Assembly: GCA_007050995.1 (NCBI GenBank)
Contig: VJOU01000007.1
Span: forward strand, 62,001-126,000
Length of the DNA stretch: 64,000 nt
Source of the DNA: Glycocaulis profundi
GTDB lineage: Bacteria; Pseudomonadota; Alphaproteobacteria; Caulobacterales; Maricaulaceae
Direction of reading: 5' to 3'
Shown: positions 53,244-59,991 of the stretch, one piece after another
How positions within the stretch are numbered: position 1 is the first letter of the stretch
Layout of the letters: the number at the start of each line of letters is the position of its first letter
Translations under genes and position numbers: made by a program
Notes under the pieces: model-generated
Seen by the model: the letters and a program-made list of their open reading frames with translations, nothing else
Databases searched by the model: none
What the model was told of the DNA's origin: nothing

Positions 53244-53259
53244 GAGTGAACGTTCACTC
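53244..53259. promoter_or_regulatory. TetR-type operator, site 1
   Basis: GAGTGAACGTTCACTC is a perfect 16-bp palindrome of the kind bound by TetR/AcrR repressors. It matches the core of site 2 (53357-53376); the shared consensus would be GTGAGTGAACGTTCACTCAC. No TetR gene is in the window. Confidence 0.65.
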
Positions 53260-53356
53260 ACATATTGGATGCCGAGTTGTGCGGACAAGGGCGGCTCCGA
53301 ACCTGTTGATCTAATTCGATAAACGCATTCAGATAAACTGACCCCTGGTTTTGCTG

Positions 53357-53376
53357 GTGAGCGAACGTTCACTCAC
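53357..53376. promoter_or_regulatory. TetR-type operator, site 2
   Basis: GTGAGCGAACGTTCACTCAC is a 20-bp palindrome with one mismatched pair. Its centre is 115 bp from that of site 1, close to eleven helical turns, which would place two bound dimers on the same DNA face. Confidence 0.65.
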
Positions 53377-53527
53377 GGCGGTGTTTTTTCCCTCGTGATG
53401 CCACCGTCGGGCGGCGTCGGCAGATCACGGCTGGCCATGTCTGCATCAATGGCTCCCGGCAGGGAATTTGACCGGGCGGGTCGCTTCCGAGCCGTGCCGT
53501 CCGCCATTGGCCTGCATCCGCCCTATT

Positions 53528-53545
53528 GTGTTAGCGCGCTAATAC
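53528..53545 (+). promoter_or_regulatory. TrpR-family operator in the his promoter
   Basis: GTGTTAGCGCGCTAATAC is an 18-bp palindrome (8 of 9 pairs), with a perfect 12-bp core TTAGCGCGCTAA at 53531-53542. Size and symmetry recall the E. coli trp operator. It sits between a possible -35 (TTGTGT, 53526) and -10 (TATATC, 53548), 34 bp upstream of the YerC-like gene, so repression by that protein is likely. Confidence 0.6.
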
Positions 53546-53578
53546 GCTATATCGCTTCGACCGGAACGGAGCGAGCTC

Positions 53579-53890
53579 ATGACGGACGGACCCAGCCCCG
53601 CCTCCCGCCAGCGCGATGTCGACGCGCTGTGCGAGGCCCTGCAGACCCTGAAGACGCCCGCCGAGACGCGGCGCTTCCTGCTCGACCTGACCACGCCGGG
53701 CGAACTGAACGCCATCGCCGAGCGCTGGCGCGTCGCCTGTCTGCTCAATGACGGCGGCAAGTCCTATCGCGAGATCAGCGCCGAGACGGGGGTGAGCACC
53801 ACCACCGTCACCCGCGTCGCCCGCTTCCTCGCCCAGGAGCCTCATCAGGGCTACCGCCTCGTCCTCGACCGCCTCAAGGAGCGCTCATGA
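53579..53890 (+). CDS. YerC/YecD TrpR-related regulator
   Basis: 103 aa. All-helical TrpR-like fold with LDLTTPGELNAIAERWRVAC and a helix-turn-helix SYREISAETGVSTTTVTRVA. It lacks other domains. YerC-like proteins of Firmicutes regulate histidine genes (HisR), so this gene probably senses histidine and represses the operon it heads. ACGGAG 7 nt upstream; its stop overlaps the hisG start (ATGA). Confidence 0.88.
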   Translation: MTDGPSPASRQRDVDALCEALQTLKTPAETRRFLLDLTTPGELNAIAERWRVACLLNDGGKSYREISAETGVSTTTVTRVARFLAQEPHQGYRLVLDRLKERS

Positions 53891-54771
53891 CCGCCCGCCT
53901 GAAACTGGCCGTGCAGAAGAAGGGCCGCCTCGCCGAGGGCGGGTTCGACCTGCTCAGGCGCGCGGGCGTCAAGCTCGCCTACGCCCGCGACGAGCTGACC
54001 CGCCGGGCGGAGAACCTCCCGCTGGACCTGATGCTGATCCGCGATGACGACATCCCCAATTTCGTCGCCTCCGGCGCGTGCGAGTTCGGCATCGTCGGCG
54101 AGAACGTGCTCAAGGAGGCCGCCGCGCGCAGCCCCCGCATCGCCGGGCTCGAGACCGTGATGGCGCTGGGCTTCGCCAAATGCGCGCTCAAGCTCGCCGC
54201 CCCCAAGGATGGTCCGGTGCGCGCGCTGGCCGATCTTCAGGGCCGGGCGGTGGCGACCACCTATCCGGGCCTGACCGAGGCCTTCCTGTCCGCACGCGGG
54301 ATCACCGCGGAGATCGTGGAGATGGGCGGCTCGGTGGAGGTCGCTCCGCGCATGAACATCGCCGACGCGATCTGCGATCTGGTCTCCACCGGCGCCACGC
54401 TGGAGGCCAACGGCCTGACCGCCTTCGAGACCGTGCTGGAGAGCGAGGCGGTGCTGGTGCGCGCGCCCGGCGCCCGCGCGCCCGAGATCGAGGAGACGGC
54501 GGCCCTACTGTCCGAGCGCTTCACCGGCGTCATCGCCTCGCGCCAGACCAAATACATCATGCTCAACGCCCCGACCGCCCGGCTGGACGAGATCCGCGCC
54601 GCGCTGCCCGGCGCGGACGCGCCCACCGTGGCGCCCGTGGTGGGCCGCGACGACGTGGTGGCCGTGCACGCGGTCTGCACCGAGGAGGTGTTCTGGCACA
54701 CGCTCGAAGCGCTCAAGGCCGCGGGCGCGCGCTCCATCCTCGTCCTGCCGATCGAGAAGATGATGCCATGA
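53887..54771 (+). CDS. hisG: ATP phosphoribosyltransferase, long form
   Basis: 294 aa. First step of histidine synthesis. Long-form HisG with C-terminal ACT-like regulatory domain (about 225-290), so no HisZ is needed and feedback by histidine is expected. Seen: KLAVQKKGRLAEGGFDLLRR, LIRDDDIPNF, GIVGENVLKE, DAICDLVSTGATLEANGL, ASRQTKYIMLNAPTARLDEI and ILVLPIEKMMP, all close to E. coli HisG by eye. Overlaps hisD (ATGA). Confidence 0.97.
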   Translation: MTARLKLAVQKKGRLAEGGFDLLRRAGVKLAYARDELTRRAENLPLDLMLIRDDDIPNFVASGACEFGIVGENVLKEAAARSPRIAGLETVMALGFAKCALKLAAPKDGPVRALADLQGRAVATTYPGLTEAFLSARGITAEIVEMGGSVEVAPRMNIADAICDLVSTGATLEANGLTAFETVLESEAVLVRAPGARAPEIEETAALLSERFTGVIASRQTKYIMLNAPTARLDEIRAALPGADAPTVAPVVGRDDVVAVHAVCTEEVFWHTLEALKAAGARSILVLPIEKMMP

Positions 54772-56108
54772 AGCTCCAGCGCATCATCTGGTCGCAAGCT
54801 GCTGAAATCGAACGCGAAGCCGCGCTGGCCCGTCCCGCGGCGTCCTCGGACGCGATGGCCGTGGCCGCCGCCATCCTCGCCGACGTCCGCGAGCGGGGCG
54901 AGGCCGCCGTGCGCGATCATGCCGAGCGGCTGGACGGCTGGGCGCCGGACGATTTCCGCGTGCCCGCCGCCGAGCTGGAGGCCGCCGAGGCCGAGCTCGC
55001 CCCCGAAGACCGCGACGCGATCCTCGCCGCCGCGGACGCGGTGCGCGGCTTCCACGCCGAACAGGGCTATCGCGCCTATGAGACTCAGACCTGGCCCGGA
55101 GCCCGCGCCGAACGGCGGGTCAAGCCTCTGTCGGTCGCCGGGCTCTACGTGCCTGCGGGCACCGCGCCGCTGGTCTCCACCCTGATCATGCTGGCCGTGC
55201 CCGCCCGGATCGCGGGCGTGGGCCGCATTGCCGTGCTCACCCCGCCCGTCACTGGCGAAGGCCCCGACCGCGCCATCCTCGGCGCGGCCTCGCTGCTGGG
55301 GCTGGACGAGGCCTACGCGCTGGGCGGCGCCCACGGCATCGCCGCGCTGGGGCTGGGCGTGGCCGGGCTGCCCCGCGCGGACCGCATCTTCGGGCCGGGC
55401 AACGCCTATGTCGCCGCCGCCAAGGCCCTGTTGGCCCAGACCCCCGGCGGCGCGGCCACCGATCTGCCCGCCGGGCCCAGCGAGGTCATGGTGGTCGCCT
55501 CTGACGACGCCGATCCCGATTTCGTCGCCCTCGACCTGCTCGCCCAGGCCGAGCACGACACGCTGGCCCAGGTCATCTTCGTGGCCTTTTCCGAAGGCTT
55601 CGCGGACCGGGTGGAGGCCGCTCTGGCCGACCGCCTCGCCACGCTCCCCCGCGCGGAGATCGCCCGCGCCTCGCTCGCCTCGGCGCGCGCGGTGATCGCG
55701 GATGACGAGACGATGGCGCGCGAGATCGCGGACGCCTACGCCCCCGAACACCTCATCGTGCAGACCGCCGATCCCCGCGCGTGGGCCTCCGGCGTCACCA
55801 ATGCAGGCTCGATCTTCCTCGGTCCCTGGACGCCCGAAGCGGCGGGCGACTACGCCGCCGGCCCCAATCACGCCCTGCCCACCGGCGGTGCGGCGCGGGC
55901 CTGTGGCGGGGTCACGGTGGAGATGTTCCAGAAGACCATGACGGTGCTGGAGCTCTCCCGCGACGGTGCGGCCGCCATCGCCCCCACGGTCGAGCGCCTG
56001 GCCGCCCTCGAACGCCTCGACGCCCACCGCCTGTCAATGGCGGCGCGGCGGGAGAAGGCGGGCGCGGAGCGGCCCAGCGGAGCGAGAGAGGACAGGACAA
56101 ACCCATGA
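54768..56108 (+). CDS. hisD: Histidinol dehydrogenase
   Basis: 446 aa. NAD- and zinc-dependent oxidation of histidinol to histidine. Family stretches: RRVKPLSVAGLYVPAGTAPL, YALGGAHGIAALGLG, DRIFGPGNAYVAAAK, DLPAGPSEVMVVAS, LLAQAEHDTLAQ, YAPEHLIVQT, GNxx-type GSIFLGPWTPEAAGDYAAGP and NHALPTGGAAR. The normal end is near SMAARR; the last 18 residues (EKAGAERPSGAREDRTNP) are extra and correspond to a dispersed repeat copy. The stop overlaps the next start (ATGA). Confidence 0.95.
   Translation: MKLQRIIWSQAAEIEREAALARPAASSDAMAVAAAILADVRERGEAAVRDHAERLDGWAPDDFRVPAAELEAAEAELAPEDRDAILAAADAVRGFHAEQGYRAYETQTWPGARAERRVKPLSVAGLYVPAGTAPLVSTLIMLAVPARIAGVGRIAVLTPPVTGEGPDRAILGAASLLGLDEAYALGGAHGIAALGLGVAGLPRADRIFGPGNAYVAAAKALLAQTPGGAATDLPAGPSEVMVVASDDADPDFVALDLLAQAEHDTLAQVIFVAFSEGFADRVEAALADRLATLPRAEIARASLASARAVIADDETMAREIADAYAPEHLIVQTADPRAWASGVTNAGSIFLGPWTPEAAGDYAAGPNHALPTGGAARACGGVTVEMFQKTMTVLELSRDGAAAIAPTVERLAALERLDAHRLSMAARREKAGAERPSGAREDRTNP
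56063..56100 (+). repeat. Dispersed repeat, diverged copy 3 (within hisD 3' end)
   Basis: AGCGGAGCGAGAGAGGAC (56076-56093) matches 26124-26141 at 16 of 18 positions and is followed, after a short duplication, by GGACAAA as in the other copies. The preceding GCGCGGAGCGGCCC parallels GCGCGGAACCGACC. It is read as the C-terminal tail of HisD. Confidence 0.65.
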
Positions 56109-57301
56109 CCCCGATCATAGACCTCTCCACCCCGCCGGGGATTGAGACGGGCGAAATCCTCGCCTCCCTGCGCGCCCGCTGCGCGGCTTTCCTCAACGCC
56201 GATGCGGACACGCTCGCGCTGGTTTCCACCGTGGCCGAAGCGCGTATCCTCGCCGCGAGGCTGGACATCGCTGCCGCCGACCGGACCGGGGAGGGCGCGA
56301 CCGCGCTCGAAACCCCTTCGCCCGCCCCGGCGCTGTACCGTCTCGGCCCGCCCGACGCCCCGCTCGCCCTGTTCGCGCTGGACGCGCCCGAACGCGCGGA
56401 AGCAGTCCGCGCCGCGTCGGCTCCGGTCGCGCCGATCCTGATCGAAAAAGCCGTGGCCGCCCTGGCTCCGGCGGCCCTCGCATCGGCCCGTCAGGCCCGC
56501 GACCATGCCGACCATGTCCGAGGGGCGGGGATAGCGGCCCTGAACGAGGCACTCGGCCTCGTGGGGGAGAGCGAGGGGGACGGCGTGGTCTTCTCTCCCG
56601 CCGATCCCGACGCCTTCTCCCGCAGGCTCGACGCCCTCGGCCTGAAGCTCGACCGCGCCGGAGACCGCTTCATCGCCCGCCTCGACGCGGCCCGCCTCGG
56701 CGCGCTCGCCGCCCATCTGGGCGCGGCCCGGCCCCGCGCCGCTCGCATCCGCCGCTCGACCAAGGAAACCGACATCGCCCTTCTGGTCGATCTGGACGGG
56801 CAGGGGGCGGCGGTCTCCACCGGGGTCCACTTCTTCGACCACATGCTTGACCAGATCGCCCGTCACGCGGGCATCCGGCTCGAGGTCGAGTGCGAGGGCG
56901 ATGTGGAGGTGGACGCCCACCACACCATCGAGGACGTGTGCCTGGCTCTGGGCGAGGCCCTGCGCGAGGCGCTGGGCGACAAGCGCGGCATCGGCCGCTA
57001 CGGCTTCGCCCTGCCCATGGACGAGACCCGCGCCAGCGTGTGGATCGACCTGTCCGGCCGCCCCTATTTCCGCTTTGACGGCGAGATCCCCGGCGAGCGG
57101 GTGGGCGACTATCCCGTGGAGATGTGCGCCCACGCCTTCCGCTCGATTTCCGAGACCCTGAAGGCCTCCATCCATGTCGAGGTCGACGGCGACAACGCCC
57201 ACCACATGATCGAGGCCTGCTACAAGGCCTTCGCCCGCGCCCTGCGCCAGGCCGTCCGCGTCGAAGGCGCGGACCTGCCCTCCACAAAGGGGGTGCTGTG
57301 A
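56105..57301 (+). CDS. hisB: HisB fused to a truncated HisC-like domain
   Basis: 398 aa. Residues about 213-398 are a complete imidazoleglycerol-phosphate dehydratase: RSTKETDIALLVDLDGQG, TGVHFFDHMLDQIARHAG, DAHHTIEDVCLALGEAL, GDKRGIGRYGFALPMDE and a C-terminal [14 protein letters not shown], very like E. coli HisB. Residues 1-205 are not the HAD phosphatase of E. coli HisB. They align by eye with the two ends of HisC: FLNADADTLALVSTVAEARI with an early HisC segment, and PILIEKAVAALAPAALASAR...DRFIARLDAARLGALAAHLG with its C-terminal domain. The middle is missing, including the PLP lysine and NPNNPTG regions. Occupies the hisC-hisB position; overlaps hisD and hisH. Confidence 0.9.
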   Translation: MTPIIDLSTPPGIETGEILASLRARCAAFLNADADTLALVSTVAEARILAARLDIAAADRTGEGATALETPSPAPALYRLGPPDAPLALFALDAPERAEAVRAASAPVAPILIEKAVAALAPAALASARQARDHADHVRGAGIAALNEALGLVGESEGDGVVFSPADPDAFSRRLDALGLKLDRAGDRFIARLDAARLGALAAHLGAARPRAARIRRSTKETDIALLVDLDGQGAAVSTGVHFFDHMLDQIARHAGIRLEVECEGDVEVDAHHTIEDVCLALGEALREALGDKRGIGRYGFALPMDETRASVWIDLSGRPYFRFDGEIPGERVGDYPVEMCAHAFRSISETLKASIHVEVDGDNAHHMIEACYKAFARALRQAVRVEGADLPSTKGVL

Positions 57302-57903
57302 CCACCGCGATCATCGACACCTCCACGGCCAACATCGCCTCGGTCCGCTTCGCGCTGGAACGGCTGGACGCGCCTTACGTCCTCGCCCGCGAGCCCGATG
57401 ACGCGCGGGGCGCGGACCGGCTCATCCTGCCCGGCGTGGGCGCGGCGGGACCGGCCATGGCCCGGCTTCGCGCCACCGGCTGGGCGGACGCGCTGCGCAC
57501 GGAGAACCGCCCCGTGCTGGGCCTGTGCCTGGGGATGCAGCTCCTGTTCGAGGTCAGCGAGGAGGGCGGAGCCCCGATCCCGCTTCTCACCCTCATCCCC
57601 GGACGGGTCGAGCGCCTGAATCCCGGCGGCGCGGGGCCGTGGCCGCACATGGGCTGGAACGCGCTCGACGATCTGGCCCCGGACGAGCCTCTGCTGGAGG
57701 GCATCAGCCCCGGCGAGCGGGTCTATTTCGTCCACGGCTACCGCGTCGCCCCCGGTCCGTTCACCCGCGCCACCGCCCTTTACGGCGAGCCGGTCACGGC
57801 CATCGCGCGCAAGGGTAACGTCGCCGGATGCCAGTTCCACCCGGAGCGATCGGCCAAGGTCGGCGCGCGGATTCTGTCAAACTTCATCAGGGCTTCGTCA
57901 TGA
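57298..57903 (+). CDS. hisH: Imidazole glycerol phosphate synthase, glutaminase subunit
   Basis: 201 aa with GTG start overlapping the hisB stop (GTGA). Class I glutamine amidotransferase supplying ammonia to HisF. Nucleophile Cys in [12 protein letters not shown], His-Glu in [13 protein letters not shown], and [11 protein letters not shown] and [10 protein letters not shown] are typical. N-terminal [20 protein letters not shown]. Overlaps hisA (ATGA). Confidence 0.96.
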
Positions 57904-58622
57904 TTCTTTATCCGGCCATCGATGTTCTGGACGGTCGCGTGGTGCGGCTGGCGAAGGGCGATTTCAACGCCGTCACCGACTATGGCGGCGATCCGGCGGC
58001 CATCGCGCGCAGCTACGCCAAGGCGGGCGCGACATGGCTGCATCTGGTCGATCTGTCGGGCGCGCGGGACGGGCGCAGACGGCAGACCGATCTGGTCCAG
58101 ACGCTGTCCGACACCGGTCTGAAAATCCAGACCGGCGGCGGGGTGCGGACCTCCGACGACGTGGAGGCGCTGCTGGACGCGGGCGCGGACCGGGTCGTGG
58201 TCGGCAGCCTGGCCGTGACCCGGCCCGAGACCGTGCAGGACTGGCTGCGCCGCTACGGCGCCGAGGCCATCGCCGCGGCGTTCGACGTGCGCATCGAGAA
58301 CGGCGCGCCCTGGCCGGTGGTCAAGGGCTGGACCGAACGGGCGGAATTCACGCTGGGCGAGCTGCTGGCCGGTTACGGGCGTTCGGGGCTGCGCCATGCG
58401 CTGGCGACCGATGTGGGCCGCGACGGCATGCTGGGCGGGCCGAACACCGATCTCTACCGCGATCTGGCCCGATCCCGCCCCGACATCGCCTGGCAGGCCT
58501 CCGGCGGGGTGTCCTCGCTCGAGGACCTCACGGCGCTCAAGGCCGCGGGCGCGTCCGGCGCGATCATCGGGCGGGCCCTGTTCGAGAAGCGCTTCACGCT
58601 GGACGCGGCGCTGGCATGCTAG
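57900..58622 (+). CDS. hisA: ProFAR isomerase
   Basis: 240 aa TIM barrel; isomerises the aminoaldose to the aminoketose. Catalytic Asp in [14 protein letters not shown] and [52 protein letters not shown] and the [13 protein letters not shown] end resemble E. coli-type HisA (VDLTGAKD.., ending EAIQC) more than usual alphaproteobacterial forms. Overlaps hisH and hisF. Confidence 0.95.
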
Positions 58623-59383
58623 CGAAACGCATCATCCCCTGCCTGGACGTCAAGGACGGGCGCGTGGTCAAGGGCGTGCGCTTCGCCGACCATGTGGACG
58701 TGGGCGGCATCGAAGACCTCGCCCGCCGCTATGCCGAAGAGGGCGCGGACGAGCTGGTCTTCTACGACATCGCCGCCAGCCCCGAGGGCCGCGAGGTGGA
58801 GCCTGAGTGGGTGGGCCGGGTCGCGCGGGCCATCGATATTCCGTTCTGCGTGGCGGGCGGAATCCGCTCGGTGGACGCGGCCCGCGCGCGCCTGTTCGCG
58901 GGCGCGGACAAGATTTCAGTCAACACCCCCGCGCTGAAAAACCCTGATCTCATAGACGCTTTGGCGAAGGAGTTCGGGTCCCAGTGCGTGGTCGTGGGCG
59001 TGGATTCCCGCGTCATCGAGGGCGAGTGGCGCACCCACCAGAACACCGGCGATCCCGGCAGGACCGAGATCGGCCACCGCCGCACCCTCGACTGGATCGC
59101 CGAAGCGACCGGCCGCGGCGCGGGCGAGATCGTGCTCAACTGCATGGATCAGGACGGGGTGCGCGAGGGCTATGACATCGACCAGCTCGCCGCCGCCCGC
59201 GCGGTCTGCCCCGTGCCCCTGATCGCGTCGGGCGGGGCGGGCGCGATGGAGCATTTCGCAGACGTGTTCGGCCGGGCGGAGGTGGACGGCGCGCTGGCGG
59301 CCAGCGTCTTCCACAGGGCGGTGATCGCCATCCCCGATCTCAAACGCTGGCTCGCCGATCAAGGCGTGGAGGTGCGGCTGTGA
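58616..59383 (+). CDS. hisF: Imidazole glycerol phosphate synthase, cyclase subunit
   Basis: 255 aa TIM barrel; builds imidazole glycerol phosphate and AICAR with His[21 protein letters not shown] (catalytic Asp), [57 protein letters not shown] (second Asp) and [13 protein letters not shown]. The sequence is visibly of the E. coli type. It starts 7 nt inside hisA and overlaps hisI (GTGA). Confidence 0.97.
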
Positions 59384-59991
59384 CCCTCGATCCGAACACC
59401 ATCGACTTTGAAAAATCCGGCGGCCTCGTGCCCGCCATCGTCCAGCATGACGCCACCGGCGAGGTGCTGATGCTGGGCTATATGAACGCCGAGGCGCTGA
59501 GCGCGACGCAGGAAAAAGGTCTCGTAACCTTCTGGTCGCGTTCAAAGAACCGGCTGTGGACCAAGGGCGAGACCTCCGGTGACACCCTCGCGCTGGTCTC
59601 CATCGCCCCCGACTGCGACCGCGACGCGCTGCTGGTCCGCGCCCGTCCCGCCGGGCCGACCTGCCATCTGGGAACCCGGTCCTGCTTCGGCGACGCGCCC
59701 GGCCCCGGGCTCGCCTTCCTGGGCCGCCTGTCCGCCATCATCGAGGACCGGTCCCGGGCCGATGGCGATGAGGACAGCTACACCGCGCGGCTTTTGAGCG
59801 CCGGTGTGGTGAAAATCGCCCAGAAGGTCGGCGAGGAGGGGGTCGAGACCGCGCTGGCCGGCGCGGTGCAGTCCGACGGCGAGCTGACCGGCGAGGCCGC
59901 CGATCTTCTCTACCACCTCATGGTCCTGCTCAGGGCCCGCGGCCTGTCGCTGGACGCGGTGGCGGCGGAGCTCGCCCGCCGCCACCGCTGA
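59380..59991 (+). CDS. hisI: Bifunctional PR-AMP cyclohydrolase / PR-ATP pyrophosphatase
   Basis: 203 aa, the length of E. coli HisI. Residues 1-110 are the cyclohydrolase ([39 protein letters not shown], zinc Cys in [10 protein letters not shown] and [12 protein letters not shown]); 115-203 the pyrophosphatase ([59 protein letters not shown]). Alphaproteobacteria usually carry separate hisI and hisE, so the fusion is another foreign-looking feature. Last gene of the operon; ends 5 bp from the convergent peptidase gene. Confidence 0.96.

Follow-up and report, generated by a model that had tools for sequence, protein, structure and literature searches.

Control of histidine synthesis by a DNA-binding protein of the TrpR type has been described as a predicted system in Proteobacteria, where hisR is the first gene of the his operon in most species that have it (Ashniev et al., 2022; PMC9413887). 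In that study, where 11 genomes from Rhodobacterales and Caulobacterales are mentioned, a HisR site with a TrpR-like proteobacterial motif lies immediately upstream of alphaproteobacterial hisR-his operons, the pooled proteobacterial consensus is TGTAnTArnnnnyTnTTACA, and histidine stimulates DNA binding by HisR of Ruminococcus gnavus. We analysed a 64,000 nt stretch of the Glycocaulis profundi genome (Maricaulaceae, Caulobacterales in GTDB; contig VJOU01000007.1, positions 62,001–126,000; hereafter, the window), in which a first-pass annotation had taken an 18 bp palindrome for the likely operator of a local regulator of this kind. As a hisR-his system with an upstream HisR site is already described (PMC9413887), the idea itself is not new. 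For the window, we consider it very probable that HisR uses the palindrome as its operator, and that the whole his operon is subject to histidine-dependent autorepression and not to attenuation. As in the proteobacterial HisR regulon, hisR comes first in the operon and an operator of ∼20 bp is kept with hisR and missing without it; the lineage of the window, however, has the consensus GTRTTAGCRYGCTAAYAC in place of the pooled one, which the window site matches at 11 of 14 specified positions.

The palindrome, GTGTTAGCGCGCTAATAC (Table 1), was confirmed as near-perfect, with eight of nine pairs complementary and the sole mismatch at the third pair (G/T). Its symmetry by itself is not significant and proves nothing, because palindromes of such quality are common in a GC-rich window: we counted 29 18-mers with at least eight of nine pairs, against 18 in mononucleotide shuffles. 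What does exceed chance, judging from the sequences compared, is positional conservation across relatives. Within a set of 61 genomes (that of the window plus 60 relatives), hisR is present in 40, and 37 of these carry a window-type operator upstream of it, including one in which the site has diverged to GCTTTAGCGTGCTAAAAC. The distance to hisR is mostly ≤ 130 bp, with a few sites lying farther away (e.g. ∼350 bp in one genome), and most of the named loci, from Alkalicaulis, Marinicauda, Woodsholea, Oceanicaulis, Glycocaulis, Maricaulis, Hellea, Robiginitomaculum and Asticcacaulis, possess the site. The remaining three genomes are of the Brevundimonas type (Caulobacteraceae) and have another palindrome in the equivalent place. 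Amongst relatives lacking hisR, none of the 15 with a placeable hisG showed such a site in the 720 bp upstream of that gene. The conservation alongside the same gene order on which the first-pass annotation had staked its operator is thus borne out.

Over 80 non-redundant loci, information is confined to TGTATTAGCRYGCTAACACR (the ∼20 bp operator) and a TATAAC-like block, and flanks more than ∼25 bp away carry none apart from weak −35-like signals. The pattern used for anchoring fixes six positions and restricts others, and the evidence consists of the unforced ones: T before the core (90 %), C at position 7 (88 %), G at position 10 (89 %), R at position 18 (98 %) and the TATAAC block. A pattern scan of the 3.6 Mb G. 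profundi genome allowing ≤ 2 mismatches found the operator in single copy and no further HisR targets; a three-mismatch match on contig C2 was considered as a second target and rejected, as it is not palindromic. Two operators precede hisR in some relatives, ∼225 bp apart in Glycocaulis albus and closely spaced at three other loci. One alphaproteobacterial lineage has a gene for a HisN-like phosphatase after hisR, and hisG upstream of hisR, across the site. Genomes bearing hisR have long-form HisG, whilst 15 of 18 Caulobacterales genomes lacking it encode only distant HisG relatives (∼27–38 % identity), perhaps the short form that works with HisZ; one Parvularculaceae genus has a close HisG (48–49 %) without hisR.

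That the first gene of the operon specifies a TrpR-family protein, as originally annotated, is supported by profile searches: its product scores 76 bits against Pfam Trp_repressor (PF01371, cut-off 27) and 66.6 bits against the YerC/YecD model TIGR02531 (cut-off 42.2), and falls below the cut-off of the TrpR equivalog TIGR01321 (29.9 bits, cut-off 67.25). Its AlphaFold model (predicted local distance difference test, pLDDT, 94) has 3FRW, 3KOR and 3G1C as best Foldseek matches, at template modelling (TM) scores of 0.77–0.81, with rmsd (root-mean-square deviation) of 1.3–1.5 Å and identity of 34–40 % for 3FRW, 3G1C and the best 3KOR chains; TrpR structures rank next, and 1TRR, 1ZT9 and 2OZ9 are among the matches. 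The window protein shares family, fold and, as predicted, a role in his control with the Firmicutes HisR proteins (Bacillus subtilis YerC and R. gnavus HisR; 3FRW, 3KOR and 3G1C), but their operator is cacTTTAnnnnnnTAAAgtg, unlike that of the window, and their hisR usually lies outside the his operon (PMC9413887), which in the window it heads. With Escherichia coli TrpR and the trp operator it has in common the fold, the helix–turn–helix, half-sites of the form GT...A, an 18–20 bp palindrome in the promoter and, as proposed here, autoregulation. The two proteins, however, are only 23 % identical, residue 79 is Thr and not Ile, and the half-site is GTRTTA where the trp operator has GTACTA.

A candidate promoter surrounds the site. 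Directly after the operator stands the −10-like TATATC, part of a conserved block 20–25 bases past the operator start whose consensus in relatives is TATA(A/T)C, and the left operator arm overlaps a possible −35 hexamer, TTGTGT, at a 16 bp spacing. A −10-like box, GCTATATC or GCTATAAC, comes after the operator in Maricaulaceae proper. Many Robiginitomaculum/Hellea-type loci lack this box and have a TTGACA-like hexamer ∼21 bp upstream of the operator, whose left arm, TATTAG, would then serve as the −10. These two layouts tend to exclude each other (both at 4 loci, one alone at 18 and 35, neither at 23, by our own thresholds; Fisher P ∼0.001, uncorrected for relatedness). In either layout bound HisR would cover the promoter, so that repression by occlusion is predicted. 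The earlier placement of the palindrome inside the promoter stands, by way of the adjoining −10-like element and on comparative conservation. The GCTATA(A/T)C following the operator was also considered as a third half-site for tandem dimers and set aside: it is often missing where there is an upstream TTGACA-like hexamer, and a −10 fits better. Tandem binding is a possibility chiefly for Brevundimonas.

We propose that histidine, when plentiful, would act as co-repressor of HisR, and that dimers of the holo-protein would bind the palindrome between the −35-like TTGTGT and the −10-like TATATC, blocking RNA polymerase and shutting off hisR-hisGDBHAF-IE together; as histidine falls, HisR would release its site and the operon would be expressed. 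Certain observations weigh against this scheme. A strict sigma-70 consensus scan returned no promoter, so the promoter assignment rests on comparative conservation; the evidence for histidine was obtained with a HisR of Firmicutes, which is distant and has an operator of another type; and two TetR-type palindromes that lie farther upstream might contribute a second input.

The alternative that survives best, although we consider it unlikely, is that HisR does bind the operator but answers to a co-repressor other than histidine, such as tryptophan or an intermediate of the pathway, for instance 5-aminoimidazole-4-carboxamide ribonucleotide (AICAR) or phosphoribosyl pyrophosphate (PRPP). Aligned with E. 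coli TrpR, HisR keeps the tryptophan-site residues T44, R54, T81 and R84 as T39, R49, T76 and R79, which speaks for such a ligand. Gly85 and Ser88 of TrpR, however, are replaced by Val80 and Phe83; the tryptophan-pocket set is thus not fully kept, and from the residues involved these two should obstruct indole binding. Moreover, the his operon is the only target found, and we infer histidine as the probable ligand by analogy, because R. gnavus HisR binds DNA better in its presence (PMC9413887).

It is very unlikely that the palindrome belongs to another regulator and lies near hisR incidentally. Two TetR-type palindromes in the same intergenic region give this idea some footing, but the site co-occurs with hisR and is missing in relatives without it, its length and half-site form are as known for HisR and TrpR, and in Brevundimonas it changes along with the HisR recognition helix. 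Still less probable is attenuation or control by some other leader RNA, with the palindrome forming an RNA stem. Attenuation is the usual mode of his control in gammaproteobacteria; here, only 33 nt separate the end of the operator from the hisR ATG, too few to fit a leader peptide, Rfam searches gave no his leader and no T-box, a terminator scan gave no terminator-like site, and base changes amongst relatives track a DNA half-site consensus. The short distance and the lack of an Rfam leader element make attenuation unlikely, in agreement with the first-pass annotation, which had noticed no His-rich leader peptide. Finally, a functionless chance palindrome, for which the excess of similar 18-mers over the shuffled expectation might be cited, is already refuted by conservation of the site across dozens of genera.

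We compared the residue aligned to the DNA-contacting Ile79 of TrpR across 125 distinct HisR sequences, and found Thr in 96, Pro in 13 and Leu in 11. TTA half-sites accompany Thr in 87 of 91 sites, CTA in at least one arm accompanies Leu in 9 of 11, and GTTCCA/GTTACA accompanies Pro in 13 of 13, with operators in distant alphaproteobacteria called by a looser pattern for which we estimate ∼0.1 chance matches per locus. All Pro-type proteins fall in one clade, made up of Brevundimonas and close Caulobacteraceae, whose sister Asticcacaulis keeps Thr and the usual operator. The hisR-his operons of this clade (13 loci) have a different, 26 bp operator-like palindrome, GTTCCACTGTTACAGCATAGTGGAAC, with half-sites repeating at 8 bp. 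Tandem TrpR dimers have this spacing too, and tandem binding is the subject named in the title of structure 1TRR. It is conceivable, at somewhat less than an even chance in our judgement, that alphaproteobacterial HisR proteins and their operators co-diverged, the residue at Ile79 setting the half-site (Thr with GTRTTA in the window and most relatives; Leu with the trp-like GTACTA in alphaproteobacteria of small genome size, mostly ahead of an ABC transporter; Pro with GTTCCA/GTTACA in Brevundimonas) and the 26 bp site taking two tandem dimers. The association is suggestive and not proven, because each class is largely one lineage and shared descent could explain the correlation. We did not find this co-divergence described in the literature searched, mostly without subscription papers, and it is apparently undescribed. 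At ten loci from alphaproteobacteria with genomes of ∼0.9–2 Mb, a HisR-like gene is followed by one for an ABC transporter substrate-binding protein, not by hisG (in one case with a permease as well); most carry a trp-operator-like site of the GTACTAn6TAGTAC type, and the ligand of these proteins could be histidine or tryptophan.

The operon runs hisR-hisG-D-B-H-A-F-IE, with a 4 bp ATGA overlap joining hisR to hisG and overlapping ATGA at the other readable junctions too (Table 1).

Table 1. Features of the hisR-his locus; positions are those of the window
Feature	Position	Strand	Basis
Weaker alternative −35, TTGGCC (putative)	53507–53512	+	Position only
Possible −35, TTGTGT (putative)	53526–53531	+	Overlaps left operator arm, 16 bp spacer; position only
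Predicted HisR operator, 18 bp core palindrome GTGTTAGCGCGCTAATAC	53528–53545 (53527–53546, 20 bp, when the flanking T and G are counted)	.	Symmetry, conservation, single genomic copy
−10-like TATATC (putative)	53548–53553	+	Directly after operator; conserved block
Ribosome-binding site GGAG	53568–53571	+	Direct sequence reading
hisR, predicted YerC/YecD-type TrpR-superfamily repressor, 103 aa	53579–53890	+	TIGR02531, PF01371, predicted fold
hisG, long form with C-terminal regulatory domain	53887–54771	+	TIGR00070 and TIGR03455; ATGA overlap with hisR
hisD	54768–56108	+	TIGR00069
hisB with extra N-terminal aminotransferase-like domain of ∼200 aa	56105–57301	+	PF00475 at residues 239–380
hisH (approximate start)	57298–57903	+	TIGR01855
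hisA (approximate start)	57900–58622	+	TIGR00007
hisF (approximate start)	58616–59383	+	TIGR00735
hisIE, final operon gene	59380–59991	+	PRK02759 model NF002747, 260 bits

The additional domain of HisB (encoded at 56105–56704) sets this operon apart from the described proteobacterial HisR regulon. It has no Pfam match and recurs at 27–40 % identity in Glycocaulis-type, Marinicauda, Woodsholea and Oceanicaulis relatives. The domain was modelled with AlphaFold (pLDDT 83), and the model resembles fold-type I aminotransferases, BioA being the best match and the HisC structure 1FG3 reaching a TM score of 0.46; an intact HisC is encoded elsewhere in the genome, and the domain may be what is left of a decayed HisC that became fused to HisB. 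The gap separating the malic enzyme gene from hisR holds the two TetR-type palindromes, near-identical copies of GAGYGAACGTTCACTCAC at 53244–53261 and 53359–53376. The sole other genomic copy, on contig C2, stands ∼30 bp before a TetR-family gene with acyltransferase-like genes on both sides, and a lipid-related TetR regulator may act upstream of hisR.

These findings would extend to a further lineage the control of histidine synthesis by a repressor that binds DNA, in place of RNA attenuation, with an operator and promoter layout defined well enough for direct testing. The operator sets of Caulobacterales, including the Brevundimonas switch that coincides with the change of a base-contacting residue, also provide material on how the TrpR fold chooses its DNA; if true, the co-divergence would amount to a switch of specificity within that fold that is both natural and readable.
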